DNA of 64,000 nt from positions 1 through 64,000 of the forward strand of contig JAUWLW010000002.1 of assembly GCA_030613505.1 (NCBI GenBank), written 5' to 3'. The notes beneath the pieces are model-generated. The model saw only the letters and a program-made list of their open reading frames with translations, had not been told where the DNA came from and made no database searches. Below, one piece after another: positions 11,723-33,245 of the stretch. This stretch comes from Candidatus Zixiibacteriota bacterium (GTDB lineage: Bacteria; RBG-13-66-14; B26-G2; WVWN01). Made by a program: the position numbers and the translations under genes. Positions within the stretch are counted from its first letter, which is position 1. Every line of letters starts with the position of its first letter.

Positions 11723-12349
11723 GTGAAAAAGTTTTTAGCCTTGGCCGCGGCCGTAGCGCTTTCCGCCGCGGCGTTCGGCGGCGAGGTGGTCGTCGGCAAG
11801 AAGGAGTTCAATTTAAACATCCCGTTTTGCGGGTCTTGAGGGCCGCAGTACCGGGTCCAGGTTTTGGTCCTTAAAAGCGAATTGAACTTCGCCGGTCCTA
11901 TCACGCGCGTCGATTACGAATCATACGGCACGTACGCCGCGGGCTACTTTTACGAATTTGAGATGAAGCTCTGCCATACGCCGCTCTCCGAGCTTACGAC
12001 GAACTACAGTCGGAATTACGGCGGCAACACGCCGACCCTGGTCGCTGCGTTAAACCCTTTCACGATCAACGCCAAGAAGGACGAGTGGTTCGGCGTAGCG
12101 TGTACCAAGTCGTTCGTCTACAACAATCGCGACAATTTAATCGTCGAGGTCCGGTGGCGCAACCGGACGCTCACGACGAAGATCGAGGTGTGGGGATACG
12201 TCGCCGGTTCGAACCGACTCCTCATACATAAAGAATATAGCGCGACCGAAGGCCAGCTCTCGACCAAGACGGACCGCCTGCGCATAACGTTCAGCGGCGT
12301 GCCGGTAGCGCCTACCTCTCTTGGGAGCGTTAAGGCGTTGCTCCGCTAA
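11723..12349 (+). CDS. Predicted secreted selenoprotein, CGSU type (in-frame UGA at residue 39)
   Basis: Start GTG follows AAAGGAGG. The frame runs through a signal peptide, then reaches TGA at 11837-11839 within PFCGS-U-GP and stays open to a TAA at 12349 (208 residues). Family features downstream are a WEW/VDYE-like strand, LCHTPLSELT, NYGGNTP, EWFGVA, YNNRDNLIVEV and the tag VAPTSLGSVKALLR. The LCHT...NTP...YNG-x-DNL pattern resembles extracellular beta-sandwich domains of Bacteroidetes-type surface proteins; that relation is inference. The Sec partner Cys is at -3 (C-x-x-U). A SECIS-like hairpin follows. This is the most divergent member and an isolated single copy. Redox function is inferred from Cys/Sec only. 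Confidence 0.8.
11854..11870 (+). promoter_or_regulatory. Predicted bacterial SECIS hairpin
   Basis: Stem GGUCCAG/UUGGUCC with loop GUU, loop starting 22 nt after the UGA. Six of seven positions pair; one U-U mismatch. Confidence 0.65.
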
Positions 12350-12355
12350 GGGCTC

Positions 12356-14608
12356 TCAGAACAGCTCGTAGGGGTCGACGTCGACCTTAACCGTCGTCGG
12401 GCCCTTACGTCGCGCCAGCGCGGCGAGTTCCTCGGCCGCGCTTTCTATTTCCCCCAACTCCGCTTTTACCAATATTTGCCAGCGGCATTCGCCCCGGGCG
12501 CGGGCCACGGGCGCCGGCACCGGGCCCAGAACCGTCACCGGAGGACCGAACATTCCCCGAAGTCGCGCCGCGATTTCGTCGGCCTTCGCGCTTCCGGCCG
12601 CCTTGCGCTCGACCACGACGACGTTGACGAGGTGCGTGTACGGCGGGAGCTCGAGCCGGCGTCGGAAAGCGAGTTCACGTTCCGCGAACGCCTCGTAATC
12701 GTCGGCCGCGGCGGCCGCGACGGCGTAATGGCCCGGGTGGAAGGTCTGGATTAGAACGCGACGGCTCGCGGCCGAAGGCTGCAGCATCCGCCGTATGGTG
12801 CGGTACGTCCGCTCGGAGGCGCGGAAGTCGGGGAGGTTCATGGCAGTGTCGGCGTTGGCGAGAGCGGCGAACGTGATGTCCGCGTAGTCGAGTGCCCGGA
12901 GCGCCATCTGCGTTCCCGCGACGACGTCGTACCCGCCGGCGGCGAAAACTTCCCAGAACGAGCGTACCCGGGCGGGCGTCCTTAACGCGTCCGAATCGAC
13001 GCGGCCCACGCGCGCGTCCCCGAGGAGCAGTCGGATTTCCGCGGCCAGTTTCTCGGTACCGAAGCCTACGCCCGCGAGCTTCTCCTTGCCGCAGTACGGG
13101 CACCGGCGGGGGAGTGGCTCCCGCCGCATGCAGTAGTGGCACCTTAGGACTTCTTCGTCCTTATGATATGTAAAAGCGACGTCGCACCGGTCGCAAGCCA
13201 GCGACCTACCGCACTCGTCGCAATATATGTACGGTACGTAGCCCCGCCGGTTGACGACTACTAACGCGCGGTTGCCGCCGGCGAGGGTATCCAGCAGGCC
13301 GCGGGCCAAGGCCCTCGATAGGATTACGGGGCCTTCCGTCGGAACTACTTTCGACATATCTACCAGCGTTAGTTCGGCTTTTCGGCCCTTCGCCGGCAGC
13401 CGGCGTCGGCGTACGTCGCCCGACAGTACGCGGGCGTGCGTCTCGAGTGAGGGCGCCGCGGCGGTCATCACGAGGGACGTACCGGCGGCCCGAATCGCGC
13501 TCACGTCGCGAGCGTTGTAGTAGGGTGCTCTCTCCCACTGCTTATACGCGTTATGGGCTTCGTCGGTTACGATTATGGCGGCGTCGCGCGGCAGCGGGAG
13601 GAAGAGCGCGGAGCGCGTGCCGACGACGCGCGCGACGGTCCCGCGTCGGCACCGCCGGAAGACCTCCCATCTCGCCGCGGCCGACATCTCCGAGTAGTAG
13701 GAGGCGAAGGGTTCTCCCCAGACATCCTCGCACCGCCGACGGGCCGCGGGGACGCGGTACATTTCCGGAACGAGGACGAGGACCGAGGTCGCGCCGGCCT
13801 CGCGCGTTACTTTGAGCGCTTCCTCCAGCCGTAGGTCGCCGTCCCCGCCCGTTATAATCGTGGCCCCGGCTTCGGGCGGTTTCTTGAGCGGCGATTTCGA
13901 GACCAGCCCCATCGCCACCCGGCGCGCCCGTAGAAGGCGGCGGAGAGCGTTTCGTTCTTTGGCTTTTCCCCAAAAGCGGGCCGCGGGCACGGGCCCGTTG
14001 GCGGCGGCGACGACGACGGCCGCGCCGAGCTTACCGAGCGTCTTGCCTTCTGTCGGCGCGGCGTAGACCAGGAGATCGTCTATGGCGGGTTTGACGGCGT
14101 ACGGCTCGACGGCGAGGATGTTTTGGCCGTGTAGTCGCGGGACGCCGCCGCCGCGGCCTGCCGCTTTGGCGCTGAGCCACCCGGCGCCCCACACGTCGGC
14201 GACCAGCTCCTGCTCCTCTTCGCTGAGCCCGCTCAAGTCGGGGGCGGCGGCGAATTCGGCCGTCAGCACGAGCGCGTTGTCGCGTTTGAAATCGAGCGGG
14301 ACCGGCAGCGCGACGGCGGCCGTTTCGCCGACGGAGGCGGCGTAGCGCCGCGAAACGTACGCCAGCAATTCCCACAGGAAAGGCGGGAAAACGGGCTCGT
14401 AATCTATTACCCTCGTGACGGGTTTGATTTTAACGTGGGGGGCGGGGCGGGTTGCGGTCCGGCCGGCGAGACCCACGGCCGGTTTGTTGCCCAATTCGAC
14501 TTCGACGCGGGTTCCGGGGGCCGGGGCGTCTTCTCCCTCGAGCCGGTACGTGAGGGGTCCGAAGGGAGGCCGTGTAAAGAGGACGTCGATAAAATTTTCG
14601 TGGGCCAA
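12356..14608 (-). CDS. priA: PriA-like primosomal protein with degenerate helicase motifs
   Basis: A 750-residue replication-restart protein. The N-terminal DNA-binding domain (FTRPPFGPLTY), a DEAH-type motif II (VTDEAHNAYKQ, about residue 350), the eight-Cys zinc region (CDECGRSLACDRC...CPYCGK), GFGTEKLA and PDFRASER are all recognisable. The Walker A position (about 250), normally GxTGSGKT, reads ITGGDGDL without the Lys or Ser/Thr, and the motif VI arginine-finger region (usually QxxGRAGR) reads LQPSAASRRV. ATP hydrolysis is therefore probably lost, as in actinobacterial PriA-like proteins. A structural role in loading DnaB is the likely remaining function. Confidence 0.9.
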   Translation of the reverse strand: MAHENFIDVLFTRPPFGPLTYRLEGEDAPAPGTRVEVELGNKPAVGLAGRTATRPAPHVKIKPVTRVIDYEPVFPPFLWELLAYVSRRYAASVGETAAVALPVPLDFKRDNALVLTAEFAAAPDLSGLSEEEQELVADVWGAGWLSAKAAGRGGGVPRLHGQNILAVEPYAVKPAIDDLLVYAAPTEGKTLGKLGAAVVVAAANGPVPAARFWGKAKERNALRRLLRARRVAMGLVSKSPLKKPPEAGATIITGGDGDLRLEEALKVTREAGATSVLVLVPEMYRVPAARRRCEDVWGEPFASYYSEMSAAARWEVFRRCRRGTVARVVGTRSALFLPLPRDAAIIVTDEAHNAYKQWERAPYYNARDVSAIRAAGTSLVMTAAAPSLETHARVLSGDVRRRRLPAKGRKAELTLVDMSKVVPTEGPVILSRALARGLLDTLAGGNRALVVVNRRGYVPYIYCDECGRSLACDRCDVAFTYHKDEEVLRCHYCMRREPLPRRCPYCGKEKLAGVGFGTEKLAAEIRLLLGDARVGRVDSDALRTPARVRSFWEVFAAGGYDVVAGTQMALRALDYADITFAALANADTAMNLPDFRASERTYRTIRRMLQPSAASRRVLIQTFHPGHYAVAAAAADDYEAFAERELAFRRRLELPPYTHLVNVVVVERKAAGSAKADEIAARLRGMFGPPVTVLGPVPAPVARARGECRWQILVKAELGEIESAAEELAALARRKGPTTVKVDVDPYELF

Positions 14609-14624
14609 CGGTTAATAATAACAT

Positions 14625-14659
14625 AAAGCCGGGCGGCATGTCGTCAACCGCCCGGCTTT
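14625..14659. terminator. Bidirectional-looking intrinsic terminator
   Basis: Twelve-base arms AAAGCCGGGCGG / CCGCCCGGCTTT around an 11-nt loop, between rpoZ and priA. It probably reduces read-through from rpoZ into priA. Confidence 0.75.
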
Positions 14660-14677
14660 GCGACCGCTTACTTAAAC

Positions 14678-14908
14678 TTAATCTTCGTCGTCCTCGGCTT
14701 CCAGGATGTCGGCTTTGAACGTGAAGCTTCCCCCGACGAATTCTTCCAGGGCTATCATGGTAGCTTTCTCTTCCTCGAGCTTATCCTCGTATTTTGCGTA
14801 TTCGTCGAGTATTTGACGGGCCCGACGTGCGATAGCGAGGACCGTCGCGAAGTCGTTGGGGGAATTCACGAATACTTTCTCGATTACGTCTTGTTCGTCC
14901 GCTTCCAT
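14678..14908 (-). CDS. rpoZ: RNA polymerase omega subunit-like protein
   Basis: A 76-residue acidic protein. The stretch FATVLAIARRARQILDEY followed by an acidic helix and EKATMIALEEFVGGSF matches the omega-subunit pattern (helix with A-x-RAR-Q, then a conserved loop before the C-terminal strand). The start follows a GGAGG-containing leader. It lies 48 bp after the foldase gene stop, probably the end of that operon. Confidence 0.8.
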   Translation of the reverse strand: MEADEQDVIEKVFVNSPNDFATVLAIARRARQILDEYAKYEDKLEEEKATMIALEEFVGGSFTFKADILEAEDDED

Positions 14909-14956
14909 CGCAGGATAACCTCCGCCTCCTACATGGGTTGACCGCGGGGCGATGGA

Positions 14957-16627
14957 CTATTCCTGTTCCTCGCCGGCGGGTGGCGCGGCCTCTTCCGGCG
15001 GCGGCGTTTCGCTTCCGCTCTCTTCGCCGCGTTCGGGCCCCGGCAAGTCGGCCGGCCAGGTAACGTCTTCTTCGCCCATGTGTTCTATCATCCACCGGGC
15101 CGACGACGCGTAGTCGGAATCGGGGTACGAGGCCAGCAGGGCCCGGAATTTATCTTTGGCGGTGGCGTAGTCATTCAGCTCTTCGGAGTACAGGAAACCG
15201 GCCATGAATAGCGCTTTGTCGGCGCCGTCGCGCTCCGGGAAGCGCTCCACGAACTTCTCGTATCCCTGGATCGCTACGACGGGAGTAGCGGCCCCCTCGG
15301 CCTTGGCCATCAGTTCGTCCGGGCCCATGTCGTCGTACGTCCGGGCCCAGTCGAAGCGCTCCATTTTGTATTTACGTTCCAAGTCGACGAAGGCCTGCTC
15401 GAAGTATTCGCGACGTCGTTCGTCGAGGAGTTTGGAGAATATGCGGTCTCGCACCTCGTCGAATTCCATCTGCCGGAAATCGCGGCGCCGGTCTACTTTG
15501 AATAAGTGGAAGCCGTCGTCCAGTTCGAACGAGCCCACGACGTCGTTCTCCGCCGCGGCGAAGAGGGCCTTCTCGACCTCCTCGTTTTGACCTATCCCTT
15601 GGATATAACCTCCGGGACGGATCCAGCCGAGCAAGCCGCCGTTATTCTTCGTAGCCAGGTCGGTGGAATACAGTTTAACCAGCGACTCGAAGTCTTCGCC
15701 CGCTCGCGCCCGCCTAAGCATTTCGCGCGCCTCGGCTGCCGTCTTCACGACGATCTGGCGGGCGAGGACGCCCTCCTCGATGACGTATTCGTCGCGGTGG
15801 GAGTTGAAGTAATCGCGGGCGTCGCTCTCGGGCAGGAGTATCCGGTCCCGTATGCGGTAGCTCACTTGCTCCAACGGCGTATACGTTTCTTCGCTGCGTT
15901 CGTCCACCCGGAAGATATGGTAGCCGCGGTCGCTGGGCGTCACGGCGGAGGGTTTTCCGGGCTCAAGGCCGAAGGCGATTTCACGGAAGTTCTCGCAGTT
16001 GCCTACCTGGAAAGGCGTCTGGCCTTCCTTGACTTCGCCTATAAGGCCCCCCTGGTGCGCCGTATATTCATCCTTAGATACCTCGGCCGCCACGGCGCCG
16101 AAGTCTTCGCCGGCCGCCAAACGCGCGAGCACTTCTTCGGCTTCCGCGGGGCTCTCCACTAGGATGTGGCGCAGCCTTACGCGCGCGGGCTCCATGAAGT
16201 CGCTTTTGTGCGCCTCGTAGTAGCGCGCGACCTCTTCGTCCGGGACGCCGAGCGTGTCCGCGATGTAGCGTTGGAAATAAGTCGACGCCAAGATGCGGAT
16301 GCGCGCGTCCTCGATGTCGCGTTTGACGCCCGGATCTTTGTGGAGCTTGACGCGTTCGGCCTCGGCGACGAGTAATTTGTTCTTTATCCAGATGTCCAAG
16401 AGCATCTTCCGGCCTTCCGGCCCCTGGTAGGAGCGACGTTCCATCGGGTCCATCAGCTCGATCATCCCGTCGAGGTCGCCCTCGGTAATTCTCTCGCCGC
16501 CCACGACGGCCACCACCGCGTCGGGCGACCGCTCTTCGTCGTCGCCGCCCATTTTACTTGCGGCTATCGTCGCGAAAGCGGCCAAAGCGAACACAAGAAG
16601 CCTCTTCCAATTTTTCGCGCGCGCCAT
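14957..16627 (-). CDS. Periplasmic parvulin-type peptidyl-prolyl isomerase (SurA/PpiC-like)
   Basis: Start set at MARAKNWKRL, preceded by AGGTGG at 8 nt; an upstream ATG adds only a Pro/Arg-rich shadow of fmdB. A 556-residue protein with a hydrophobic N-terminal segment, a SurA-N-like helical region, and two parvulin domains (ARVRLRHILVES... about residues 150-245; GVLARQIVVKT... about 285-390). A C-terminal TPR-like helical region (AIQGYEKFVERFP...AKDKFRALLASYPDSDYA) resembles YfiO/BamD repeats. An acidic Pro-rich tail follows. It probably assists folding of exported proteins. Confidence 0.88.
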   Translation of the reverse strand: MARAKNWKRLLVFALAAFATIAASKMGGDDEERSPDAVVAVVGGERITEGDLDGMIELMDPMERRSYQGPEGRKMLLDIWIKNKLLVAEAERVKLHKDPGVKRDIEDARIRILASTYFQRYIADTLGVPDEEVARYYEAHKSDFMEPARVRLRHILVESPAEAEEVLARLAAGEDFGAVAAEVSKDEYTAHQGGLIGEVKEGQTPFQVGNCENFREIAFGLEPGKPSAVTPSDRGYHIFRVDERSEETYTPLEQVSYRIRDRILLPESDARDYFNSHRDEYVIEEGVLARQIVVKTAAEAREMLRRARAGEDFESLVKLYSTDLATKNNGGLLGWIRPGGYIQGIGQNEEVEKALFAAAENDVVGSFELDDGFHLFKVDRRRDFRQMEFDEVRDRIFSKLLDERRREYFEQAFVDLERKYKMERFDWARTYDDMGPDELMAKAEGAATPVVAIQGYEKFVERFPERDGADKALFMAGFLYSEELNDYATAKDKFRALLASYPDSDYASSARWMIEHMGEEDVTWPADLPGPERGEESGSETPPPEEAAPPAGEEQE

Positions 16628-16655
16628 ATTCGCACCACCTATTAGCCGTAAAGGC

Positions 16656-16922
16656 TTAGTCTTTTTCGTCGCTCTTGGTTTTTTTACCGCCGCCGGTGCC
16701 CGCGGCCTCGCGGTCCTTTTTCGCGGCCTTCTTGTAGGATTCGCTGCGGTAATCGGTGGTATAAAAGCCGGAGCCTTTGTAGATGACGCCGGCGCCCGCG
16801 CCGATAAGGCGGCGGCACCGGGCACCGCATTCCGGGCACTTGGCCTTCGGCTTGGCGGTAATCGATTCGAACTTCTCGAACCGGCAGCCGCACTCGGGAC
16901 ATTCGTATTCGTACGTCGGCAT
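16656..16922 (-). CDS. FmdB-family zinc ribbon protein
   Basis: An 88-residue protein starting MPTYEYECPECGCRFEKF, the hallmark of FmdB/Zn-ribbon-8 regulators, with CxxC pairs at about 8/11 and 29/32. The C-terminus is Lys/Asp-rich. The ATG at 16922 was chosen because it gives the canonical MPTYEY start; the longer open frame overlaps the small membrane protein gene in a different frame. It sits 15 bp after that gene and 28 bp before the foldase gene, so it is likely part of one operon. Confidence 0.9.
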   Translation of the reverse strand: MPTYEYECPECGCRFEKFESITAKPKAKCPECGARCRRLIGAGAGVIYKGSGFYTTDYRSESYKKAAKKDREAAGTGGGKKTKSDEKD

Positions 16923-16936
16923 GGTTTTAAATAGGT

Positions 16937-17101
16937 TTAACCCCAGGGGTTGGGTCGGGTCGATTCGGCCAGTTTTTCGGGGGGTACTAGTTTCTTCGAG
17001 GCCGCGACCCAGTAACGGTTGGGGATTAGTATGAGGGCCGCGGTCAGCAACAACAGTACCGCGACGACGAGGCGGTAAACGATCTTCGATTCGTTCGCCA
17101 T
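16937..17101 (-). CDS. Small single-span membrane protein (54 residues)
   Basis: The frame on the minus strand reads MANESKIVYR, then a hydrophobic helix LVVAVLLLLTAALILI, then PNRYWVAASKK and a Pro-rich end NPWG before TAA. Position, strand and the 14-bp gap to the FmdB gene suggest it is the first gene of that operon. No clear Shine-Dalgarno is visible. Function is unknown; the anchor followed by a short basic segment suggests an accessory membrane protein. Confidence 0.55.
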   Translation of the reverse strand: MANESKIVYRLVVAVLLLLTAALILIPNRYWVAASKKLVPPEKLAESTRPNPWG

Positions 17102-17346
17102 AAATACGGTAAATTTTTAGTGGGTTAGCCGATATTGTAACATATTTATCTTTGCGAAGCAACAATATATACCGGCTCGTTTAACGGTATCTAGCAGTCC
17201 TTCTAGCCTAAATTATTGGTATTTAATGGTTTGTGGTGCCACAATATAGTACGGGTCGGTCGGGTAGTTAGCTTTACGATTTAGTGGTATATATTTTATT
17301 GTCGCCCTTATAATGTTAAGACGTAATTTTACTTAATTAAGACGAA
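17102..17346. other. A+T-rich intergenic stretch
   Basis: About 245 bp with much lower G+C than the flanks and many TTTA/ATTT runs. It probably contains the promoter of the small membrane protein/fmdB operon (minus strand). No ORF, tRNA or repeat was recognised. Confidence 0.4.
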
Positions 17347-17379
17347 TTAAAAATAAGCCGGCCTACTGGCCGGCTTTTT
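17347..17379. terminator. Intrinsic terminator after the minus-strand selenoprotein pair
   Basis: AAGCCGGCC-TACT-GGCCGGCTT flanked by A and T runs; on the minus strand it follows the 17401 gene. Confidence 0.8.
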
Positions 17380-17400
17380 CGTTGGCGTTCCGAGGAGGGG

Positions 17401-18030
17401 TCAGCGATACAGCGTTTTGACGCGGCCGAGCGAGGTCGGCGCGACGCCGATGCCCTCGAGCGTTATGCGCATGTGGTGCCAGTAGTTGACGAGCGAGATC
17501 GAGCCGTTTACGTCGTAGTAGCCGCGGTTTGTTCCGGCCGTCGCGTACGTCGACGTCTGGCCGAGCTTATCCGAGTCCTTCCAATAAACCTCTATTATGA
17601 GATTGCGCCGGCCGTCGTATCGGAAGTCGGTATCGAAGGCCCAGCCGAACCAGGCGCCCCGTTCCGCGTAAATATACTGCTGACTCCGGCTGTAGATGTC
17701 GACCGGCGTGTTGCCGCCGTAGTTGGCCTCGAAGTTATACGTCAGCTGCGAGAGCGACGTGTGGCACAAGCGCAGTTTGAAGTTGTGATAGGTGCCCGCT
17801 TTGTTCTCGGCCCCCGAGAGGTGGCACCGCCACTCCCACTTCGTTATCGTACCCGCGGGGACGGCGTCGGTCGACAGAACCAGGTCCTGGTTCCGAACCC
17901 AGTTCTGCCCTCAACAACACCGGAAGGGGTACAGCGATTGGAGCTCGGTCCCGCCGACCGTTACGGTATCGCCTCGGGCGAGCGGCACGACGGCGGCTAG
18001 CGCGCACGCTATTATCAACGCTCTGGACAT
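17401..18030 (-). CDS. Predicted secreted selenoprotein, CCU type (in-frame UGA at residue 40)
   Basis: Start ATG at 18030 gives a signal peptide (MSRALIIACALAAVVPLARG). TGA at 17913-17911 lies in YPFRCC-U-GQ, with two Cys just before it. The frame then continues through AGTITKWEW, LRLCHTSLSQLT, NYGGNTPVDIY, GAWFGWAFD, YDGRRNLIIEV, HHMRITLE and the tag VAPTSLGRVKTLYR to 17401 (209 residues). It begins 19 bp after the stop of the 18050 gene and so is the second gene of a two-gene unit. An extra Cys (WRCHLSG) follows the WEW strand. The SECIS-like hairpin here has a full 7-bp stem. Confidence 0.85.
17877..17893 (-). promoter_or_regulatory. Predicted bacterial SECIS hairpin
   Basis: Perfect stem GAACCAG/CUGGUUC, loop GAC, loop starting 25 nt after the UGA. 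Confidence 0.75.
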
Positions 18031-18049
18031 AGAGGTTTCCCCTTTTCCG

Positions 18050-18697
18050 CTACCGGTGCAGCGTTTTGACGCGGCCGAGCGAGGTCGGCGCGACGCCGAC
18101 GACGCTGATCGTAAGGCGCATATGGTGCAGGTAATTCATTAACTCGCCCTGGTTCGGGTAGCCGTGTTGGGGGTTGCCGTACCGAATCGACGAGTATAGG
18201 CCGCGGGACATGATCTTGGTAATGTACGTGGGAGCCGCCCCCTCGCCGGCGTCCTCCTCCCACCAAACTTCTATTATAAAGTTATCGCGGCCGTTGTACG
18301 CGAAGGGCGTGCCGAAGGGCCAGCCGAACCACGACTCGGCGGGCGGGTTGACGTTGTGCGAGCTGCGATAGAACACGCGTACCGGCGTGTTGCCGGCGTA
18401 ATTGGTTTGAAAGGTATTCGTAAGCGCGTTGAGGTTCGTGTGGCATAGTTTTATCCTGAAATCTTTATAGGTCCCCCCGACTATACTACCGTTCGCGTGC
18501 CACTCCAACTTCGTAATCGAACCGGCGGGCACGGCGTCGCTCTGAAGAACCAGGTCCTGGATCCTCACGGCGCTGTAGTCTCAACACCCGTAGAACGGGA
18601 ACCCCTCGGTGCTTTGGGTTCCGCCGACGACGACCTGTACCGCGAAAACCGGGGCGGCGGTCAGAAAGGCGGCGGTAAAAATCGCAAACGTCTTCAT
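18050..18697 (-). CDS. Predicted secreted selenoprotein, GCU type (in-frame UGA at residue 39)
   Basis: ATG at 18697 follows AGGGAGA. Signal peptide MKTFAIFTAAFLTAAPVFA, then VQVVVGGTQ and FPFYGC-U-DY with TGA at 18583-18581. After it come SDAVPAGSITKLEW, IKLCHTNLNALT, NYAGNTPVRVFY, ESWFGWPFG, YNGRDNFIIEVWW, HHMRLTI and the tag VAPTSLGRVKTLHR (215 residues). The KLEW in place of KWEW is unusual in the family. It is first in a two-gene unit behind a TTGACG-N17-TATCAT promoter. Confidence 0.85.
18547..18563 (-). promoter_or_regulatory. Predicted bacterial SECIS hairpin
   Basis: Stem GAUCCAG/CUGGUUC with one U-U mismatch, loop GAC, loop 25 nt after the UGA. Confidence 0.68.
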
Positions 18698-18747
18698 TTC
18701 GAATCTCCCTGTTGGCGCTACGGCCATGAATTCAAATTCACGATAAT

Positions 18748-18776
18748 ATGATATCTGAGGTTTGAATACGCGTCAA
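18748..18776 (-). promoter_or_regulatory. Sigma-70-type promoter for the minus-strand selenoprotein pair
   Basis: Minus strand TTGACG, 17-nt spacer, TATCAT, about 50 bp upstream of the 18697 start. Confidence 0.65.
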
Positions 18777-18789
18777 GTTAATTACTCGT

Positions 18790-18814
18790 GACAAAACCGG
18801 CGTTCCGGCCGGTT
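18790..18814 (-). terminator. Terminator of the nickel/cobalt transport operon
   Basis: Minus strand AACCGGC-CGGAAC-GCCGGTT followed by TTGT, 30 bp after the cbiO stop. Confidence 0.6.
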
Positions 18815-18845
18815 CTCTGGACGCGGGTTCTTTCGGGGAAAATGG

Positions 18846-21159: not shown

Positions 21160-21169
21160 GCGCGCTCCT

Positions 21170-21907: not shown

Positions 21908-21916
21908 ATAACCCAC

Positions 21917-21943
21917 GTAACACTATTATAAAATATGTGTTAC
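21917..21943 (-). promoter_or_regulatory. Palindromic operator, probable NikR site, overlapping a -10 box
   Basis: GTAACAC-N13-GTGTTAC, a perfect 7-bp inverted repeat. On the minus strand its spacer contains TATAAT, so binding would block RNA polymerase. The start codon lies only about 10 bp further on. The divided two-half-site geometry and the adjacent nikR gene make NikR the likely ligand. Confidence 0.7.
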
Positions 21944-21971
21944 TAGAATCTAATAAAAAAAGGCGCTCGTG

Positions 21972-23928: not shown

Positions 23929-23957
23929 GGATTTGCCTTCAACGTAGTCGCCGCGTT

Positions 23958-25397: not shown

Positions 25398-25432
25398 GTC
25401 GAAACTATAATTGATTACCCTTGGAGCCGCAA

Positions 25433-25456
25433 TAAAAAAACCCGCCGGGCGGGCCT
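25433..25456 (-). terminator. Terminator of the dehydratase/activase operon
   Basis: Minus strand GGCCCGCC-CGGCGGG followed by seven T, downstream of the activase gene. Confidence 0.75.
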
Positions 25457-25478
25457 TCGAGTCGGCGGCGGTTAATTC

Positions 25479-26246
25479 CTAGCCGCGGGCGAGCAGCGCC
25501 GCGCCGAGGGCGCCGACGAACTGGGGCTCCGGCAGGACCTCCACGTCGCGGCCGAGCGCGGCGGCCAACGCCCGGGCGAAACCCCTGTTTAGCGCTACGC
25601 CCCCCGAGAGGACGTAGCGGCTCCCGCCCAACCGGGAGGCGAGCGACGATACGCGTTCCGCCACCGCGCGCAATACCCCCGCGCCGATGGCGGCCGGTTC
25701 TACGTCCTCGTGCAGCAGGCCGACGACTTCCGATTCGGCGAAGACGGTGCACATATTGTTGACCTTGGCCGCGTCGGGCCGGGACGCGTCGAGGGCCGCC
25801 AGCTCGAGCAGATCCATTTCCAGCGCCCGGGCCATGATCTCGAGAAAGCGGCCCGTCCCGGCGGCGCAGCGGTCGTTCATCGCGAACTCAGCCACGCCGC
25901 CGCGGCCGTTTACTCGTATAGCTTTAACGTCCTGGCCGCCGACGTCGACGACGGTGACGTCGCCGCCGACGTGTTCGAAGGCGCCGCGGGCGTGGCACAT
26001 TATTTCGGTTACGGCGCGGTCCGCGAAAGGTACGCGCGCGCGGCCGTAACCCGTACCGACGACGCGAGCCACCTCCGGTTCGGTTGCCCTTAATTCGGCC
26101 AAAGCCTCGTCGAAGGCTTTACGCGCCGCGACGGCGCCGGCGACGCCGGTGGGGAGGGCCGCTTTGGCGGCGGCCCTCCCGTCGTCGTTAATAACCACGC
26201 ACTTGGTCGCCAGCGACCCTACGTCTATGCCGGCGTAATAAGCCAT
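25479..26246 (-). CDS. 2-hydroxyacyl-CoA dehydratase-type activase (BcrAD/BadFG/HgdC family)
   Basis: A 255-residue ASKHA-fold ATPase that injects electrons into a partner iron-sulfur protein. Motifs: GIDVGSLATK (phosphate 1), VDVGGQDVKAI, NDRCAAGTGRF and NMCTVFAESEV. The two Cys of CAAG and CTVF bridge the subunit-interface [4Fe-4S] cluster of the dimer. It starts directly after the partner gene (26247). The pair resembles the double-cubane cluster protein and its reductase as well as HgdC/HgdB. Confidence 0.93.
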   Translation of the reverse strand: MAYYAGIDVGSLATKCVVINDDGRAAAKAALPTGVAGAVAARKAFDEALAELRATEPEVARVVGTGYGRARVPFADRAVTEIMCHARGAFEHVGGDVTVVDVGGQDVKAIRVNGRGGVAEFAMNDRCAAGTGRFLEIMARALEMDLLELAALDASRPDAAKVNNMCTVFAESEVVGLLHEDVEPAAIGAGVLRAVAERVSSLASRLGGSRYVLSGGVALNRGFARALAAALGRDVEVLPEPQFVGALGAALLARG

Positions 26247-27524
26247 TTACGAGCTCACTTGCTCGAGGAGCGCCTCGACGCGCGTTTTGAGCTGTCCCAC
26301 GTCGCCGTCGGAGTAGTCGGTCTCCAGAGCGAGCATCGGGATGCCGAGGTCGTCGGTGAACTTCTTGACGTTACCTTGTTCGACGAGGTACGGTGTGCAG
26401 AACGACAGCGTCGCGTGTATTATACCCTGGGCGCGGGAATTTTTGTACAGGTAATCGATGTCCTCGAGCCGTTGCTCGTTGGGCGTAAAGCAAGCGCAGT
26501 TGATCCCCATGTAGTGGTCGAGCAACGCCTCCTTCATCTCCTTCAGCGTCTTGGCGTCCTCGGCGACCGTATTCTTGTAATAACGGAAGCCGGTGCACAT
26601 CTCCTCGGCGACGACAGCGGCGCCGGAGGTTTCGACGACCTGGTGGACCTTCCAGTTGGGGATGGCCATCGGCGTCCCGGAGATCATTAGGCGGGGCGTC
26701 CCCTTGTCGAAGACGCCCTCGCCGACGGCGACCCGTTTCTCGAGCTCGTCCGCGACCTCGTTGGTCTTTTGCGTGAAGCGGTCCATGTCGTCGTAGAAAG
26801 ATATTTGCATAATGAGCAACGCGTCCTTACCAGAGATGGGAGCCGGGTCGTTCCAGCGGAGCTCGTGCACCCGCCTTATGGCGCGGCGTTTAGCGTTGAC
26901 CTTTTTGACGGCCGCGGCGAGGTTTTCCTCGGTGAGCTTATTGCCCGTAGTCTTCTCCATGGCGGCGATGAAGTCGTCGAGTTCGGCGCGCCACAGCTCG
27001 CGGTCCGCGGGGCCCTTTTTGTTGGGTACTTCCATCACGTATACGGGATGGATCTTGCCGAGCAGCTCGTACGCTTTCTTCTTGCCGTCGCACGTCGTCT
27101 CGCCCACCACGACGTCGGCGGACTCGAAGTAGGGGCAGATCTTACCGAGCTTGAAGCCGTAGAACGACTTGATGAGCGGGCACAGGTTGCGCGGTAGCTC
27201 GGCCTCGGCTATGGGAACCGAGAAGTCCGCGCCGGCGCATAGCCCAACGGCGACGCCGTCCAACGCGACGATGACCTCCTCCGGCACGAACAGGCAGAAC
27301 GTCCCGACCACCGTGCCGCCCTTCTCTTTATGGTCCAGGAGTTCCTTGATGCGGAGGCCGTGGACTTGCGAGATTACGAAGTCGTAGTACGCCATAGTTT
27401 CGGGGCGGTTGGGTTGGTCCGTGAACCACTCTAAGTAGAGTGACCCCAGCGCGCCCATAAGTACGTCGTGCTTTTCCAAGTCGAGCCCCAGGTCTTTCCA
27501 CATGTCGGTCCAGTCTTCGGCCAT
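26247..27524 (-). CDS. 2-hydroxyacyl-CoA dehydratase family / double-cubane cluster protein
   Basis: A 425-residue protein starting at MAEDWTDMWK, preceded by AGGAGG; the longer frame runs into the leader terminator. Cys residues lie in VGTFCLFVPEE, GKICPYFE, GETTCDGKK, EEMCTGFRYYK, GINCACFTPN and LSFCTPYL. The single-gene-plus-activase arrangement and the CxC in GINCACFTPN fit the double-cubane cluster proteins (YjiM/DCCP) better than two-subunit dehydratases. The reaction catalysed is unknown; low-potential reduction of a small substrate is the family theme. Expression is probably attenuated through the leader. Confidence 0.85.
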   Translation of the reverse strand: MAEDWTDMWKDLGLDLEKHDVLMGALGSLYLEWFTDQPNRPETMAYYDFVISQVHGLRIKELLDHKEKGGTVVGTFCLFVPEEVIVALDGVAVGLCAGADFSVPIAEAELPRNLCPLIKSFYGFKLGKICPYFESADVVVGETTCDGKKKAYELLGKIHPVYVMEVPNKKGPADRELWRAELDDFIAAMEKTTGNKLTEENLAAAVKKVNAKRRAIRRVHELRWNDPAPISGKDALLIMQISFYDDMDRFTQKTNEVADELEKRVAVGEGVFDKGTPRLMISGTPMAIPNWKVHQVVETSGAAVVAEEMCTGFRYYKNTVAEDAKTLKEMKEALLDHYMGINCACFTPNEQRLEDIDYLYKNSRAQGIIHATLSFCTPYLVEQGNVKKFTDDLGIPMLALETDYSDGDVGQLKTRVEALLEQVSS

Positions 27525-27540
27525 GATCGTCCTCCTATAT

Positions 27541-27575
27541 AAAAAACCAGCGTCCTTTTCCAACGGCGACGCTGG
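27541..27575 (-). terminator. Intrinsic terminator inside the leader of the dehydratase operon (attenuator)
   Basis: Minus strand CCAGCGTC-N13-GACGCTGG followed by six T, ending just before the AGGAGG of the dehydratase gene. Its position between promoter and gene implies conditional termination. Confidence 0.75.
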
Positions 27576-27762
27576 GCGAACATGGCCGAACGCGGTTCGG
27601 CACGTACGGGTGTTATGGATTACGCAACGCCCACGCGTCGTCTCCGTTTAAACGTCGTTGCGGACCCGAACCGGGTCTCGCGGCGCTTTTCGCGCCTCGT
27701 ACCTCACGTTTTCCAGAACGCGTGGGCCTTCACGAAGATCACCACCTTGAAAGAAATTTAGT
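27576..27762 (-). ncRNA. Structured 5' leader RNA, candidate riboswitch or peptide attenuator
   Basis: From the predicted transcription start, the leader folds into a long-range 10-bp stem GCCCACGCGU/ACGCGUGGGC (27718-27727 with 27629-27638). Within it are hairpins GGCGC-GAAAA-GCGCC and GACCCG-GUU-CGGGUC. A further hairpin with arms GCCGAAC/GUUCGGC lies between this stem and the terminator. A segment GGGCG at the end of the long stem could instead pair with CGCCC at the terminator foot. A short ORF near the 5' end (VIFVKAHAFWKT after AAGGTGG) is also possible. I could not match it to a known riboswitch class. Confidence 0.5.
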
Positions 27763-27767
27763 ACGGA

Positions 27768-27796
27768 ATCCTAAAAGAAATATCGGCGTTTGTCAA
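27768..27796 (-). promoter_or_regulatory. Sigma-70-type promoter of the dehydratase operon
   Basis: Minus strand TTGACA, 17-nt spacer, TAGGAT; the start falls near 27762, about 237 nt before the ATG. Confidence 0.7.
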
Positions 27797-27941
27797 TAAA
27801 AAAGGGTACCGGGGCGGCGGCCGCGCGGTTGTCAGGCCGCAGCCGCGTGACGTTTGAAGCAGCCGGGCACGCCGGAATGAGCGCGAGAAAACGGCGAAAT
27901 ATTATAGATGACCAATTGCGTTACATAAGGATATTTAATGC

Positions 27942-27970
27942 TTGACATGGTAAACGTGCTGTGTTAATTA
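27942..27970 (+). promoter_or_regulatory. Sigma-70-type promoter of the 28018 selenoprotein gene
   Basis: TTGACA, 17-nt spacer, TAATTA. The 27797-27941 stretch upstream of it contains no recognisable gene. Confidence 0.65.
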
Positions 27971-28017
27971 ATTACCAAAGTAATAGAAATGAAAATAACT
28001 TATAAGGAGGCAGCGCG

Positions 28018-28635
28018 ATGAGGATTTTAGGGATCATATCTTTATGTGCTTTAGCTGCCGGCGCCGCGTTCGCGGGTTCCGTTACGGTCGGTAGCCCGAG
28101 CATAACGGCCGCGTACCCGTTCCGGGGGTGTTGAGGCGTCGATTCCGTACGGAGCCAGGACCTGGTTCTGAGCACTGACGCCGTCCCGGCGGGGACCGTT
28201 GTGAAGTGGGAGTGGTTCGCCAGCTCGACGGTAAGTGCCGGTACTTTCAACAATTTTAGCCTTAAACTCTGCCACACCAATAAGACGGCGCTCACGACCG
28301 ATTTCACCGGCAACTACGGCGGCAACACGCCGGTACAGGTCTATTACAAGAGCTCCGAGTACATCGCCGCCACGCCGAACACCTGGTTCGGCTTCGCGTT
28401 CGCTACCGGTTTCAACTACAACGGCAAAGACAACCTGATCGTCGAGGTCGAGTGGAGCGGCGACTCCGGCGGCTACGCGTACAACTACTGGAGCTCGGCC
28501 ACCGCGCGATGCATGTACAAGTACAACAGTTACTCGCCGCGGGTATATAATTACCTGCATTACATGCGTATTACGACCGGGTATTTGGGCGTTACGCCGA
28601 CGTCGCTGGGACGCGTGAAGTCGTTGTACCACTAA
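28018..28635 (+). CDS. Predicted secreted selenoprotein, GCUG type (in-frame UGA at residue 39)
   Basis: ATG at 28018 follows TAAGGAGG. Signal peptide MRILGIISLCALAAGAAFAG, then YPFRGC-U-GV with TGA at 28132-28134. The open frame continues through DAVPAGTVVKWEW, LKLCHTNKTALT, NYGGNTPVQVYY, NTWFGFAFA, YNGKDNLIVEV, LHYMRITT and the tag VTPTSLGRVKSLYH (205 residues). It has its own promoter and terminator, so it is a single-gene unit. The tag ends in His rather than Arg. The motif G-C-U-G is identical to the C-terminal redox centre of mammalian thioredoxin reductase, though here it is N-terminal. Confidence 0.87.
28152..28168 (+). promoter_or_regulatory. Predicted bacterial SECIS hairpin
   Basis: Stem GAGCCAG/CUGGUUC (7 bp, one G-U), loop GAC, loop 25 nt after the UGA. 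Confidence 0.75.
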
Positions 28636-28657
28636 TTTTCGACCATCCTCGGAAACG

Positions 28658-28686
28658 AAAAGGCCGGCCGCGAGGCCGGCTTTTTT
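28658..28686 (+). terminator. Intrinsic terminator
   Basis: AAGGCCGGC hairpin with GCCGGC arm and six T, after the 28018 gene. Confidence 0.85.
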
Positions 28687-28735
28687 CGTAGCGTCGCCGC
28701 CCGAGGCTGCGTTTCCCCCTTAAAGGCGTTTTTGC

Positions 28736-28764
28736 TTGACAACCGGCGGCTTACCGTTTAAAAT
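28736..28764 (+). promoter_or_regulatory. Sigma-70-type promoter of the 28831 selenoprotein gene
   Basis: TTGACA, 17-nt spacer, TAAAAT, near consensus. Confidence 0.75.
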
Positions 28765-28830
28765 ATTATAAGGAGAAAGGTTTTACTCAGCACATAAATA
28801 TTCCGGCTATATAATTTAGGAGGTACCGTG

Positions 28831-29445
28831 ATGAGAGTATTAGTCGTCGGTTGTCTGTGCGCTATGGCGGTGGGCGCGGCGTTCGCGGACCACTTCGTCA
28901 TCGGCAGCAAGGGCAGTATGGCGTACTACCCGTGGCGGGGCTGTTGAGGCGTCGACTCGGCACGGAGCCAGGACCTGGTTCTTAGTACGGACGCCATCCC
29001 GGGCGGCACCATCGAGAAATGGGAGTGGTGCTGTTATTCCAGCGACCCGGGGACGTACAACAACCTCTCCGTTAAGTTGTGTCACACCAAGGTCACCAAG
29101 CTCGTGACCAACTTCGCCGCCAACTTCGACGGCAACACGCCCCTCGAGGTATTTAAGAAGAGCTCCTACTACCTCAGCGGCAGCGCCGGTAACTGGTTCG
29201 GCTTCGCCTTCGATAAGAAATTCGAGTACAACGGCAAGGATAACCTGGTCGTCGACGTCTCCTGGAACGGCGACAGCGGCGGCACCTGCTACACCTATTG
29301 GAGCCCGGGGACGGCCCGCTGCGTCTACAACTATAACGGCGGTACGGTGTATTTGACCAACTACGTGCACTACATGCGCATTACGCTCGAGCCGAACGCC
29401 GTCGCGCCGACGTCGCTCGGTCGCGTCAAGTCGTTTTATAGGTAG
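28831..29445 (+). CDS. Predicted secreted selenoprotein, GCUG type (in-frame UGA at residue 39)
   Basis: ATG at 28831 follows TTTAGGAGG; a GTG one codon earlier is possible. Signal peptide MRVLVVGCLCAMAVGAAFAD, then YPWRGC-U-GV with TGA at 28945-28947. Continuation: DAIPGGTIEKWEW, a Cys-Cys pair directly after WEW, VKLCHTKVTKLV, NFDGNTPLEVF, GNWFGFAFD, YNGKDNLVVDV, VHYMRITLE and the tag VAPTSLGRVKSFYR (204 residues). It is closest to the 28018 gene, sharing the exact GVDS-x-RSQDLVLSTDA stretch after Sec, so the two look like a recent duplication. Own promoter and terminator. Confidence 0.87.
28965..28981 (+). promoter_or_regulatory. Predicted bacterial SECIS hairpin
   Basis: Stem GAGCCAG/CUGGUUC, loop GAC, loop 25 nt after the UGA. 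Confidence 0.75.
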
Positions 29446-29469
29446 GTTTTCGCGGGCGTGGCGAAAAGA

Positions 29470-29496
29470 ACGGGGCCCGGCGGGCCCCGTTTTTTA
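29470..29496 (+). terminator. Intrinsic terminator
   Basis: ACGGGGCCC-GGC-GGGCCCCGT with T-run after the 28831 gene. Confidence 0.85.
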
Positions 29497-29538
29497 TTCC
29501 GGCATGGCCGGTATTTCGCCGGCCGAGAGGGGTTGCGA

Positions 29539-29567
29539 TTGATTTTATAGGATAAATTTGGTAAACT
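29539..29567 (+). promoter_or_regulatory. Sigma-70-type promoter of the 29613 gene
   Basis: TTGATT, 17-nt spacer, TAAACT. Confidence 0.55.
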
Positions 29568-29612
29568 TTAGCGCGCGCGCGGGTAAGCCGTTAGCGCCGC
29601 CCGAGGGGAAGT

Positions 29613-30245
29613 ATGAAGACGAAAATTTTTGCAGCGATATGTTTCGTGACTTTGGCCGTCGGCGCCGCCTCGGCCGAAAAGGTCGTGATCGGCTACCGTA
29701 CGTACATGTCATCGTTCCCGTTTTACGGCTGTTGAAATACTCGAACGTCGCGGTGCCAGGACCTGGCGCTGAAAGAGGAAGGGCTGACGGCGGGGACCGT
29801 CACGCGGTGGGAGTGGTACGCGAGCTCGATGATTACCGTCGGCGGCTTCAAGGATTTCTGGGTCAAGTTGTGTCACACCTCGCGCGACAAGCTCGTCGCC
29901 GATTTCCAGAAGAACTACGACGGCAATAAACCGGTCCAGGTTTTCGCCGACGAAGAGCTGCGCATAAAGCCGCCGGCGTATACCTGGTTCGGCTTCGACT
30001 TCTCGCCCACGTTCGAGTACAACGGCGAGGACAACCTGATCGTCGAAGTGCACTGGAAGGAGCGGAGCGGCGCGCCGGGGGTCGTCACGTACTGGACGCC
30101 GAAGGAGGGCCGGTGCTGCATGTACGCCGGGCCGGTGCCGTGCGCACCGGCGGTCTTCGACTTCGTACACTACATGCGGGTGACGATATCGCCCGTCGCC
30201 GTGGCGCCGACGTCGCTGGGCCGCGTCAAGGCGGTATACCGTTAA
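29613..30245 (+). CDS. Predicted secreted selenoprotein, GCU type (in-frame UGA at residue 41)
   Basis: ATG at 29613 follows GAGGGGAAGT. Signal peptide MKTKIFAAICFVTLAVGAASA, then FPFYGC-U-NT with TGA at 29733-29735. Continuation: an extra Cys in SRCQDL, GLTAGTVTRWEW, VKLCHTSRDKLV, NYDGNKPVQVF, YTWFGFDFS, YNGEDNLIVEV, VHYMRVTI and the tag VAPTSLGRVKAVYR (210 residues). No terminator separates it from the Sec-less paralogue 31 bp downstream, so the two are probably co-transcribed and might form a mixed complex (inference). Confidence 0.85.
29753..29769 (+). promoter_or_regulatory. Predicted bacterial SECIS hairpin with compensatory changes
   Basis: Stem GUGCCAG/CUGGCGC, loop GAC. Both arms differ from the 28 kb copies yet still pair over 7 bp. 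Confidence 0.75.
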
Positions 30246-30276
30246 GGCCGCGCTTAAAGGCCGGGGGCAAACCGAT

Positions 30277-30924
30277 TTGCGGACGATATTGATATTAACC
30301 GTTTGCTTCGTCGCGGCCGCCGGCGCCGACCGTATCCTGGTGGGCGACCCGGCGCAGCGCATCAACTTCCCGTACTACGGCGGCGGCGGGTACGAGGCGA
30401 TGAGGTGTATGGAGGTCGTCCGCAAGACCGACGGCCTCGTCGCCGGCGAGATTAGGCGGTGGGAGTGGCAGTCCGGCGAGCTGGACCCAACGACGGGAAA
30501 GTTTTATAAGTTCAAGTTGCGGCTCTGCCACACCACGCGTGCGGACCTGGCGCCTCCCTTCAACGCCAACTACGAGGGCCGCACCCCCGCGGAAGTCTTC
30601 AACGCCGACCCCGCGACCATCTCGACGCGGATTCGGGAGTGGTTCGGCTTCGATTGCAAGCCCGCTTTTCGGTACAACGGCTCGGACAACTTGCTGGTCG
30701 AGGTTTGGTGGGAGGGCGACGACGACGGCGGCGGCCTTGTCTTCACCGCCGACGTGCGCGAACAACAACGCTGCCTGCTCGCCTACCGGAAGGACGGCGT
30801 CGCGGAGTACGGCTATCCCAACCAGGGCAAGGCCTTCAACTGGCTCCACTTCATGCGAATAACGCTCGAGCCCGACGCCGTGTGGCCGACGTCGCTCGGG
30901 CGCGTTAAGGCCGTCTACCGGTAA
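30277..30924 (+). CDS. Sec-less paralogue of the secreted selenoprotein family (GGGG in place of GCU)
   Basis: Start TTG at 30277 (after GGGGG) gives signal peptide (M)RTILILTVCFVAAAGAD and 215 residues without an internal stop. Where relatives have F-P-F-Y-G-C-U, this reads FPYYGGGGYE: both Cys and Sec are replaced by Gly. The rest is intact: RRWEW, LRLCHTTRADLA, NYEGRTPAEVF, REWFGFDCK, YNGSDNLLVEVWW, LHFMRITLE and tag VWPTSLGRVKAVYR. The nucleotides corresponding to the SECIS hairpin no longer pair. It probably keeps the binding or structural role and has lost the redox centre. Confidence 0.85.
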   Translation: MRTILILTVCFVAAAGADRILVGDPAQRINFPYYGGGGYEAMRCMEVVRKTDGLVAGEIRRWEWQSGELDPTTGKFYKFKLRLCHTTRADLAPPFNANYEGRTPAEVFNADPATISTRIREWFGFDCKPAFRYNGSDNLLVEVWWEGDDDGGGLVFTADVREQQRCLLAYRKDGVAEYGYPNQGKAFNWLHFMRITLEPDAVWPTSLGRVKAVYR

Positions 30925-31044
30925 CCGGTTCTAAGACGGCGCGGTTATACGCTATCCGCGGGACGGATTATTTTTAACTTCAACCGACCCCCGGTACGCG
31001 TGAAAGACGTACCCGTTGTCGGCGAGAAGCGGCATAAGGTCCAC

Positions 31045-31073
31045 TTGACAAGTAACGTTGATTACCTTAAAAT
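31045..31073 (+). promoter_or_regulatory. Sigma-70-type promoter of the 31126 gene
   Basis: TTGACA, 17-nt spacer, TAAAAT. The rest of 30925-31125 shows no gene. Confidence 0.75.
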
Positions 31074-31125
31074 TTTTAACGGCTCGAACGTGACGAAAAA
31101 GGGTCAAACCCAAGGGGGTTGATTT

Positions 31126-31767
31126 ATGCGAAAAGTAGTAATAACGAGTCTCGGCGTCTTGGCCGCGGGCGCGGCCCTGGCGGGCCAAGTTATGGTCGGC
31201 GGCCAAGGGACCGCCGTGAATTACCCGTATTGCGGCAGTTGAGACAACGCTTATCGGGGCCAGGCGCTGGTCCTGAAAACGGACGCCGTTCCCGCGGGCG
31301 ATATTACCAAGTGGGAGTGGTACGCTTCCCAGAACCAACGGCCGGGCGATTTCAATAAATTCAGCCTTAAACTTTGCCACACCTCCCTGACGACCCTCAC
31401 CGATACCTACACCAAGAATTACGACGGCAAGACGCCGGTCCAGGTTTACTACCGCGACCCGGTGCGCATCGCCGCTACGCCTTTCCAGTGGTTCGGCTTC
31501 GCATTCGACAAGGCGTTCGCGTACAACGGCACCGACAACCTGCTCTTCGAGGTGTGGTGGGTGGGCGATAACAACGGCAACGCGTACACCTACTGGATGC
31601 CCAAGACAGGCCGGTACGTGTATTCGTATATCAAGGGGTCGACGCCTTATAACGGGTACCCCGACAAGGGGCTAGTGGTGAACTACCTTCACTACATGCG
31701 GATTACCATTTCCGCGAGCGCTGTCGAGGCATCGTCGCTGGGTCGCGTCAGGGCGCTTTATCGTTAG
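31126..31767 (+). CDS. Predicted secreted selenoprotein, CGSU type (in-frame UGA at residue 39)
   Basis: ATG at 31126 follows AAGGGGG. Signal peptide MRKVVITSLGVLAAGAALAG, then YPYCGS-U-DN with TGA at 31240-31242. The residue before Sec is Ser, but Cys stands at -3, giving C-x-x-U. One residue is deleted between Sec and the LVLKTDA strand. Continuation: LKLCHTSLTTLT, NYDGKTPVQVYY, FQWFGFAFD, YNGTDNLLFEVWW, LHYMRITI and the tag VEASSLGRVRALYR (213 residues). Own promoter and terminator. Confidence 0.86.
31257..31273 (+). promoter_or_regulatory. Predicted bacterial SECIS hairpin with compensatory changes
   Basis: Stem GGGCCAG/CUGGUCC, loop GCG, loop 22 nt after the UGA because of the one-codon deletion. 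Confidence 0.72.
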
Positions 31768-31797
31768 GCCGGAACTTAGGTTTAACTATGAGACTCA

Positions 31798-31821
31798 AGC
31801 CGGCCTATAGGCCGGTTTTTT
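31798..31821 (+). terminator. Intrinsic terminator
   Basis: AAGCCGGCC-TATA-GGCCGG followed by six T, after the 31126 gene. Confidence 0.8.
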
Positions 31822-31846
31822 CTCGCGGTAGCGCCGATATATCCGC

Positions 31847-31875
31847 TTGACACGCGCGCGAAGACGGTTTAGTAT
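31847..31875 (+). promoter_or_regulatory. Sigma-70-type promoter of the 31911-32586 unit
   Basis: TTGACA, 17-nt spacer, TAGTAT. Confidence 0.72.
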
Positions 31876-31910
31876 GAAAGGGCCTAAGGGCAACGTCGGG
31901 AGGTCGAGCT

Positions 31911-32567
31911 ATGCTACGGAAATTGGTAATCCTCTTATGTGCGGCCGCGGCCGGCGCCTCGGCGGCGCAGTTCGTCGTCGGCAGCGCGGAGACGGCCGTC
32001 AAGGCGCCGTTCTCGGCGTGTTGAGGCATCGAGGCCTACCGGTACCAGGGCCTGGTGCTGAAGACGGACGCCATCCCCGCCGGCACGATTACGCGGTGGG
32101 AGTGGTACGCCGCGTCGGGGACGGGCAGCGTACGGCATGCTCTACTTAGCAACTTCTCCATAAAAATCTGCCACACGTCGTTCAACGCTCTCACCACGCC
32201 GTTCGCGGCCAATTATGACGGCAATACGCCGGTGACGGTCTTCTCCGCCAACCCCGTAAGGGTCGACCCGGAGTACAATAACTGGTTCGGTTTCGACTGC
32301 AAGCCTACCTTCGCCTACAATGGGACCGACAATTTCCTCGTCGAGACGTGGTGGGACGGCGGCAACGACGGCGGCCCCAACTGTTGGATGAAGTACGTCC
32401 TGACCTCGAGCCGGGCGTGCATCGCCTCGCGGGTGCGCGGCGTCTCCCAGCACGGCTACCCGAACGGCGGCAAGGTCGAGGGCTACAACATGTACATGCG
32501 CATAACGATGGGCGGAGCGACCGTCGGCTCGAGCTCGCTGGGCCGAGTTAAAGCGCTCTATCGGTAA
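31911..32567 (+). CDS. Predicted secreted selenoprotein, ACUG type (in-frame UGA at residue 38)
   Basis: ATG at 31911 follows GGGAGGTCG. Signal peptide MLRKLVILLCAAAAGASA, then APFSAC-U-GI with TGA at 32022-32024. Continuation: LVLKTDAIPAGTITRWEW, IKICHTSFNALT, NYDGNTPVTVF, NNWFGFDCK, YNGTDNFLVETWW, MYMRITMG and the tag VGSSSLGRVKALYR (218 residues). The FDCK segment with an extra Cys is shared with the Sec-less paralogue. The next family gene starts 18 bp later, so the two are one transcript. Confidence 0.86.
32042..32058 (+). promoter_or_regulatory. Predicted bacterial SECIS hairpin with compensatory changes
   Basis: Stem GUACCAG/CUGGUGC, loop GGC, loop 25 nt after the UGA. Confidence 0.75.
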
Positions 32568-32585
32568 TTCGGAGGAGGCGGTTTT

Positions 32586-33245
32586 ATGATGAGGACGACC
32601 GCGATCGCGGCGCTGTTCCTTATGGCGGTGTCCTTTGCCGGCGCGGACCTGGTAATCATAGGGAAAGGCCTCGGGGCCCCCGGCGGCTCGACGCCCTGGT
32701 CCGGCTGTTGAGGCGTGTCGGCGCGTAGGCACCAGGTATTGGTGCTCAAATCGGACGGCCTTCCCGCGGGTACGATAACCAAATGGGAGTGGAACGCCGC
32801 CCGCGATTTGCTCGCCGGCGGTTTCTACAACTTCAAACTGACGTTCTGTCATACCTCCCTTACGGCGTTAACCGACACGTACGTCAATAATTACGACGGG
32901 AAAACGCCCGTTACGGTCTACAGCCGCAACCCGGTGAACATCCCTACGGTACCGTCGAACCAGTGGTTCGGCTTCGGCTTCGATAAACCGTTCGCCTACA
33001 ACGGCCGCGACAACCTCGTCGTCGAGGTATGGTGGGTAAATGACACCAACGGCGGCGGCAACACGCAGTGGAACTTCCCGGTGAACGGCCGCTGTTGCTT
33101 CTCGTATATCGTGAACGGTAACCCACAAAGCGGTTACCCGGACAAAGGCCGCGTCTCGTACTTCATGCACTACATGCGCGCGACGGTTTCGCCCTCGGCA
33201 GTGGCGCCGACGTCCTTGGGACGCGTTAAAGCTTTGTTCGGTTAA
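32586..33245 (+). CDS. Predicted secreted selenoprotein, GCUG type (in-frame UGA at residue 42)
   Basis: ATG at 32586 (a second ATG follows at once) comes after GGAGGAGG. Signal peptide MMRTTAIAALFLMAVSFAGA, a slightly longer linker, then TPWSGC-U-GV with TGA at 32709-32711. Continuation: DGLPAGTITKWEW, LTFCHTSLTALT, NYDGKTPVTVY, NQWFGFGFD, YNGRDNLVVEVWW, Cys-Cys in GRCCFSY, MHYMRATV and the tag VAPTSLGRVKALFG (219 residues). The tag ends in Gly. No terminator follows; the next hairpin lies after the decayed remnant. Confidence 0.86.
32729..32745 (+). promoter_or_regulatory. Predicted bacterial SECIS hairpin with compensatory changes
   Basis: Stem GCACCAG/UUGGUGC, loop GUA, loop 25 nt after the UGA. 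Two base pairs differ in both arms from the 28 kb copies. Confidence 0.75.

Follow-up and report, generated by a model that had tools for sequence, protein, structure and literature searches.

Organization of the UGA-interrupted genes

The window, i.e., the whole analysed stretch of 64,000 nucleotides (contig C56), belongs to a 2.86 Mb draft genome (93% complete) of the phylum Candidatus Coatesbacteria (NCBI name Candidatus Coatesiibacteriota). It contains nine paralogous genes. When UGA is translated as U, each of them is interrupted by exactly one in-frame UGA (residue 38-42) and by neither of the other two stop codons, UAA and UAG (Table 1). In the alignment of the window paralogues all nine UGAs fall into one column, and all nine translations run on to a common PTSLGRVKxLYR-like C-terminal tail, exactly as the sequence-only reading had described. 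Its statement on the preceding codon is likewise correct: the residue before the UGA is Cys in seven genes and Ser in two (those starting at 11723 and 31126), both of which possess a Cys at -3. UGA also serves as an ordinary stop in other genes of the window, as had been claimed, and even terminates gene 17401-18030 (internal UGA at residue 40, terminal UGA at residue 210), such that the codon has two meanings inside one gene.

Upstream of each gene a purine-rich stretch is situated, in most cases compatible with a ribosome-binding site, and in several genes a terminator-like hairpin follows the distal stop, none being placed after the internal UGA. Standard gene calls contain only fragments of these genes, all of them truncated or missed, so that the selenoprotein counts of the phyla concerned are probably too low.

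Table 1. Putative selenoprotein genes of the window and associated features (positions refer to the whole stretch)
Feature	Position	Strand	UGA	Hairpin	Remarks
Gene 1, CGSU (CxxU)	11723-12349	+	11837-11839	11852-11872	
Gene 2, RCCU	17401-18030	-	17913-17911	about 17875-17895	own stop UGA
Gene 3, GCU	18050-18697	-	18583-18581	about 18545-18565	
Gene 4, GCUG	28018-28635	+	28132-28134	28150-28170	AAGGAGG ribosome-binding site upstream
Terminator-like hairpin of gene 4	28666-28681				after distal UAA
Promoter-like site of gene 5	28736-28764				TTGACA-17-TAAAAT
Gene 5, GCUG	28828-29445	+	28945-28947	28963-28983	
Gene 6, GCUN	29613-30245	+	29733-29735	29751-29771	
UGA-free paralogue, GGGG at site	30277-30924	+		none	GGGG state kept in four species of the genus
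Promoter-like site of gene 7	31045-31073				
Gene 7, CGSU (CxxU)	31126-31767	+	31240-31242	31255-31275	
Promoter-like site of gene 8	31847-31875				
Gene 8, ACUG	31911-32567	+	32022-32024	32040-32060	
Gene 9, GCUG	32586-33245	+	32709-32711	32727-32747	
Terminator-like hairpin of gene 9	33408-33431				

Three further observations concern other genes. The tmRNA at 48856-49209 (-) of the window has a predicted tag, ADNYAYAC, with a terminal Cys where Ala-Ala is usual. The product of 10360-11070 (+), also in the window, contains HEAGHTFGLLHC together with paired Cys motifs and, by eye, resembles metalloproteases of the archaemetzincin type. At locus L010, 641-2575 (+), the protein ends in what appears by eye to be a T9SS-like C-terminal domain (ALGQNYPNP ... 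LYDLAGRRV).

The hairpin downstream of the UGA

In the UGA-containing members, the codons of the motif R-x-Q-x-L-V-L form a hairpin of 7-9 bp, e.g., CGGAGCCAG-GAC-CUGGUUCUG, which in each UGA gene of the window starts 12-15 nt past the UGA. Because the residues of this motif are conserved, synonymous codons resampled from the same genes were used as a control. The mean z amounts to -2.35 in 61 UGA copies (70% at p < 0.05) compared with -0.11 in 57 UGA-free copies; the latter include one strong outlier, which is the truncated copy of a UGA gene. The stem is missing in two UGA-free paralogues whose peptide is the same RCQDLVL; hairpin and UGA are lost together, even with an unchanged peptide.

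Concerning the individual pairs, the first base after the Arg codon is matched by position 3 of the Val codon, both changing in step (AU, GC, UG, UA, CG). Across the whole hairpin 31 doubly changed cells were counted against 10.2 +/- 3.5 in shuffles, and the covariation score was 0.190 against 0.099 in shuffled alignments, with 0 of 500 shuffles as high (the aligned sequences being related, this number cannot be read as a probability). Rfam yielded no SECIS model at gathering score in the window. The feature by which bacterial selenoproteins are recognized, a SECIS hairpin shortly after the UGA, is thus found computationally, and this element within the coding sequence may direct the insertion of selenocysteine (Sec), the support for such a role being statistical.

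Distribution of the family

With a profile built from the window copies, the family was found in 11 of the 14 genomes of the phylum. All 61 UGAs aligned across the phylum, among them those of a few overlapping locus copies, occupy the same alignment column, which chance cannot account for. The genome of the window possesses 11 UGA copies and 16 UGA-free copies; beyond the window these are two UGA copies (C7:37352-37999 and C38:3862-4485) and 15 further UGA-free ones. Each of the four genomes in the genus of the window yields 25-30 matches, nearly half of them without UGA. Outside this genus, Coatesbacteria have one or two copies per genome; nearly all of their full-length matches contain the UGA, with the motif CGxU. 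Of the near full-length members (a few overlapping locus copies counted twice), 25 are non-CU forms, 24 of which have the partner Cys at -3, and 31 are CU forms, all with the partner at -1; among the full-length UGA proteins of the phylum a single one is devoid of such a Cys. Three Coatesbacteria genomes (G008, G010, G012) yielded no family member; SelB exceeds the cut-off in G008 and G012. No conserved gene neighbourhood was found across the phylum, and hence no pointer to a substrate, nor were relatives of the family found in the viral contigs scanned or by a sequence search of the PDB.

A sample of 386 genomes, beginning with relatives and extending outward, shows UGA forms in Coatesbacteria and one other phylum only. 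In this second phylum the family is present in 40 of 42 genomes; the copies number several per genome and most contain one UGA, and tRNA-Sec exceeds the family cut-off in all 15 genomes checked. The UGA is found in 56 of 60 members examined, with the hairpin at the same position (mean z -2.51 for the 52 members aligned at the main column). The four UGA-free members (L195, L198, L201, L208) read CGDC or CASC, i.e., CxxC, and have no hairpin; the Cys at the U position that had been proposed as a check in homologues therefore exists. Three members of this phylum (G259:C225:5587-6198, G270:C18:12827-13411, G269:C52:25097-25666) contain two UGA codons, the latter two also a UAA; they are possibly double-Sec proteins or run-ons beyond the true end. 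Beyond the two phyla the domain occurs without Cys or Sec, mostly within very large proteins.

A tree of 163 members (midpoint rooting, several branches weak) separates the two phyla, and both basal groups are of the UGA type. Within the genus of the window, Sec losses are confined to one clade of 49 members and two small clades. The UGA-free paralogues of the genus are likely to be derived losses in which the hairpin was lost as well, and in the second phylum Sec was likely changed to Cys; both directions are read from the tree. The ancestral motif was probably CxxU, with CU (Cys-Sec) derived from it. Gene duplication would have given rise to the multi-copy sets, after which three lineages of the genus would have lost Sec and hairpin together. 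Homologues lacking both Cys and Sec at the site, which the sequence-only reading had regarded as contrary evidence, do exist and make up about half of the paralogues of the genus, but they do not refute Sec because their position in the tree is that of derived losses, without hairpin.

Decoding of the UGA

The genome of the window contains the Sec machinery whose presence had been suggested as a check: a tRNA-Sec with the anticodon UCA (66.7 bits, contig C62), SelB (319 bits, contig C63), SelA (403 bits, contig C95), and SelD (344 bits, contig C23), the three proteins each exceeding their curated cut-offs and SelD carrying an internal UGA of its own. Past the UGA, dN/dS ranges from 0.12 to 0.20 in all 11 orthologous pairs; the downstream codons are under purifying selection.

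Judged from the sequences, Sec is almost certainly inserted at the internal UGA of the family, Sec-tRNA(UCA) and SelB presumably decoding this single codon. Open frames alone could not distinguish this from a readthrough with another amino acid (by a near-cognate or suppressor tRNA) or from a local reassignment of the code, both without selenium. Such decoding is, however, very improbable, given that UGA terminates other genes and one of the nine themselves, that the full Sec machinery accompanies a hairpin tied to the UGA, and that an exchange of Cys for Sec is observed in homologues. The source sequences are draft, mostly metagenome-assembled genomes, in which pseudogenes or assembly errors might be suspected; this explanation is refuted by the recurrence of the UGA in genomes that are independent of one another and represent at least eight families in two phyla, and by the low dN/dS downstream, and its probability is next to nil. 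The selenoprotein reading of the nine genes is supported jointly by machinery, hairpin, coding selection past the UGA, and Cys homologues.

Predicted fold, putative export and C-terminal tail

The AlphaFold model is all-beta (pLDDT 90.5), and its Foldseek matches in the PDB are weak (PHR, lectin-like, and CBM-like beta-sandwiches; best E 1e-4, TM about 0.4-0.5). The protein is predicted from this model to be a jelly-roll beta-sandwich; the thioredoxin-like fold of most characterised bacterial selenoproteins (PMC13188914) is not what the model exhibits. The N-termini are signal-peptide-like with AxA-like sites (by eye), and the model has a helix at residues 5-13. Together with a tail shared with other exported proteins, these N-termini suggest that the family is exported.

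The C-terminal tail, V-x-(P)-T/A-S-L/F/W-G-x-V/I-K-A-x-Y/F, is common to unrelated proteins with signal-peptide-like starts, e.g., at 49232-50542 (-) of the window and at many other loci (among them L049, L059, L068, L070, and L083), and ends 97 of the 768 ORFs scanned, family members included. A similar tail, TFGxIKAxF, is found in the second phylum. It looks like an undescribed signal, lineage-specific and probably used for sorting or anchoring.

Possible function

The product would be an exported single-domain jelly-roll beta-sandwich of about 200 residues, in which Sec is expected in a loop before the first long strand, with one nearby Cys partner at -3 (CxxU) or -1 (CU). This pair may form a reversible selenenylsulfide, by which the protein would act as a redox module, either periplasmic or at the cell surface; such a role is suggested by the conserved partner Cys and the CxxC forms. 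Against it stand a fold that does not belong to the known oxidoreductase folds and the persistence of many paralogues without Sec or Cys at the site, from which it follows that the domain has a use independent of Sec. Taken as a whole, the statement that these genes encode a new exported jelly-roll selenoprotein family with hairpin-directed Sec, the Cys/Sec pair of which is a thiol/selenol redox module, is considered rather probable. A wider proposition has about even chances: an exported beta-sandwich of lectin-like type would have acquired a Sec-Cys redox centre and multiplied to about 11 Sec copies in a genome, and would now make up a large, hitherto unlisted family of two candidate phyla and a cell-surface selenium-dependent redox system unlike any described.

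Sec might also be inserted for the binding of soft metals or metalloids, or the protein might serve selenium uptake as a sensor or sink. A gene for the selenium transporter YedE (seleno_YedE) adjoins one subfamily on the same strand in three genomes of one genus (G116, G250, G262), export and high copy number could suit scavenging, and a lectin-like sandwich is atypical of oxidoreductases; seleno_YedE is, however, absent from many family-bearing genomes, including that of the window, the partner Cys shifts between -3 and -1 yet is almost never lost, as is typical of redox pairs, and replacement of Sec by Cys yields CxxC, which is usual for such pairs. A role of this kind is possible but unlikely. 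Still more doubtful is a purely structural one, in which a Cys-Sec selenenylsulfide cross-link staples an exported adhesin-like domain: the predicted sandwich is without known active site and domain relatives without Cys or Sec lie inside very large proteins, but a pair as local as CxxU or CU hardly staples anything, Cys-Cys would suffice, and reactivity is suggested by the maintenance of Sec, a costly residue, in two phyla. The redox module remains the favoured function.

Comparison with known systems

No profile of NCBIfam or Pfam matches the family above cut-off, and a catalogue of 119 bacterial selenoprotein families (PMC13188914, 2026, Table 1), compared by name and motif, lists nothing alike, in agreement with the earlier assertion that the family is not a described one. 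The literature searched, i.e., that apart from the groundwater-MAG selenoproteome study (ref. 66 in PMC13188914) and Haft and Tolstoy 2025, contains no pairing of Coatesbacteria with selenoproteins or selenocysteine. The occurrence of Sec in an exported, multi-copy jelly-roll domain of two phyla, together with natural variants in which it is replaced by Cys or lost and with a SECIS that disappears along with the UGA, would provide a clean natural series for studying the contribution of Sec in proteins of other than thioredoxin fold, and raises the question why a cell would export selenium.

By profile match, the same domain is found as a generic exported beta-sandwich, unnamed in Pfam, in large multidomain proteins (L144-L150). 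It shares with the family the motifs P-F ... R-x-Q and hTs ... YNGxDNL, whereas it usually forms part of proteins that can reach thousands of residues and possesses neither Cys or Sec at the site nor the LCHT cysteine conserved in the family. The SelW-like, AhpD-like, and UshA-like CxxU selenoproteins (PMC13188914) also combine CxxU, Cys homologues, and a bacterial SECIS just past the UGA, but are unrelated in sequence (no NCBIfam match), and the predicted beta-sandwich is neither thioredoxin-like nor AhpD-like. Export is suggested by annotation for selenoproteins of the TonB-dependent receptor FCYXU type and the DUF1573 UGC type (PMC13188914) as well; these are different families with other motifs and without profile match. 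The adjacent Cys-Sec (GCUG) of some paralogues does recall mammalian thioredoxin reductase, as the sequence-only reading had noted; the likeness is nevertheless superficial, since the fold is a beta-sandwich and CGxU is widespread and probably ancestral. In the reductase, a flavoenzyme, GCUG is C-terminal, whereas in the present family, which is no flavoenzyme, it is situated near the N-terminus and CU is probably derived.
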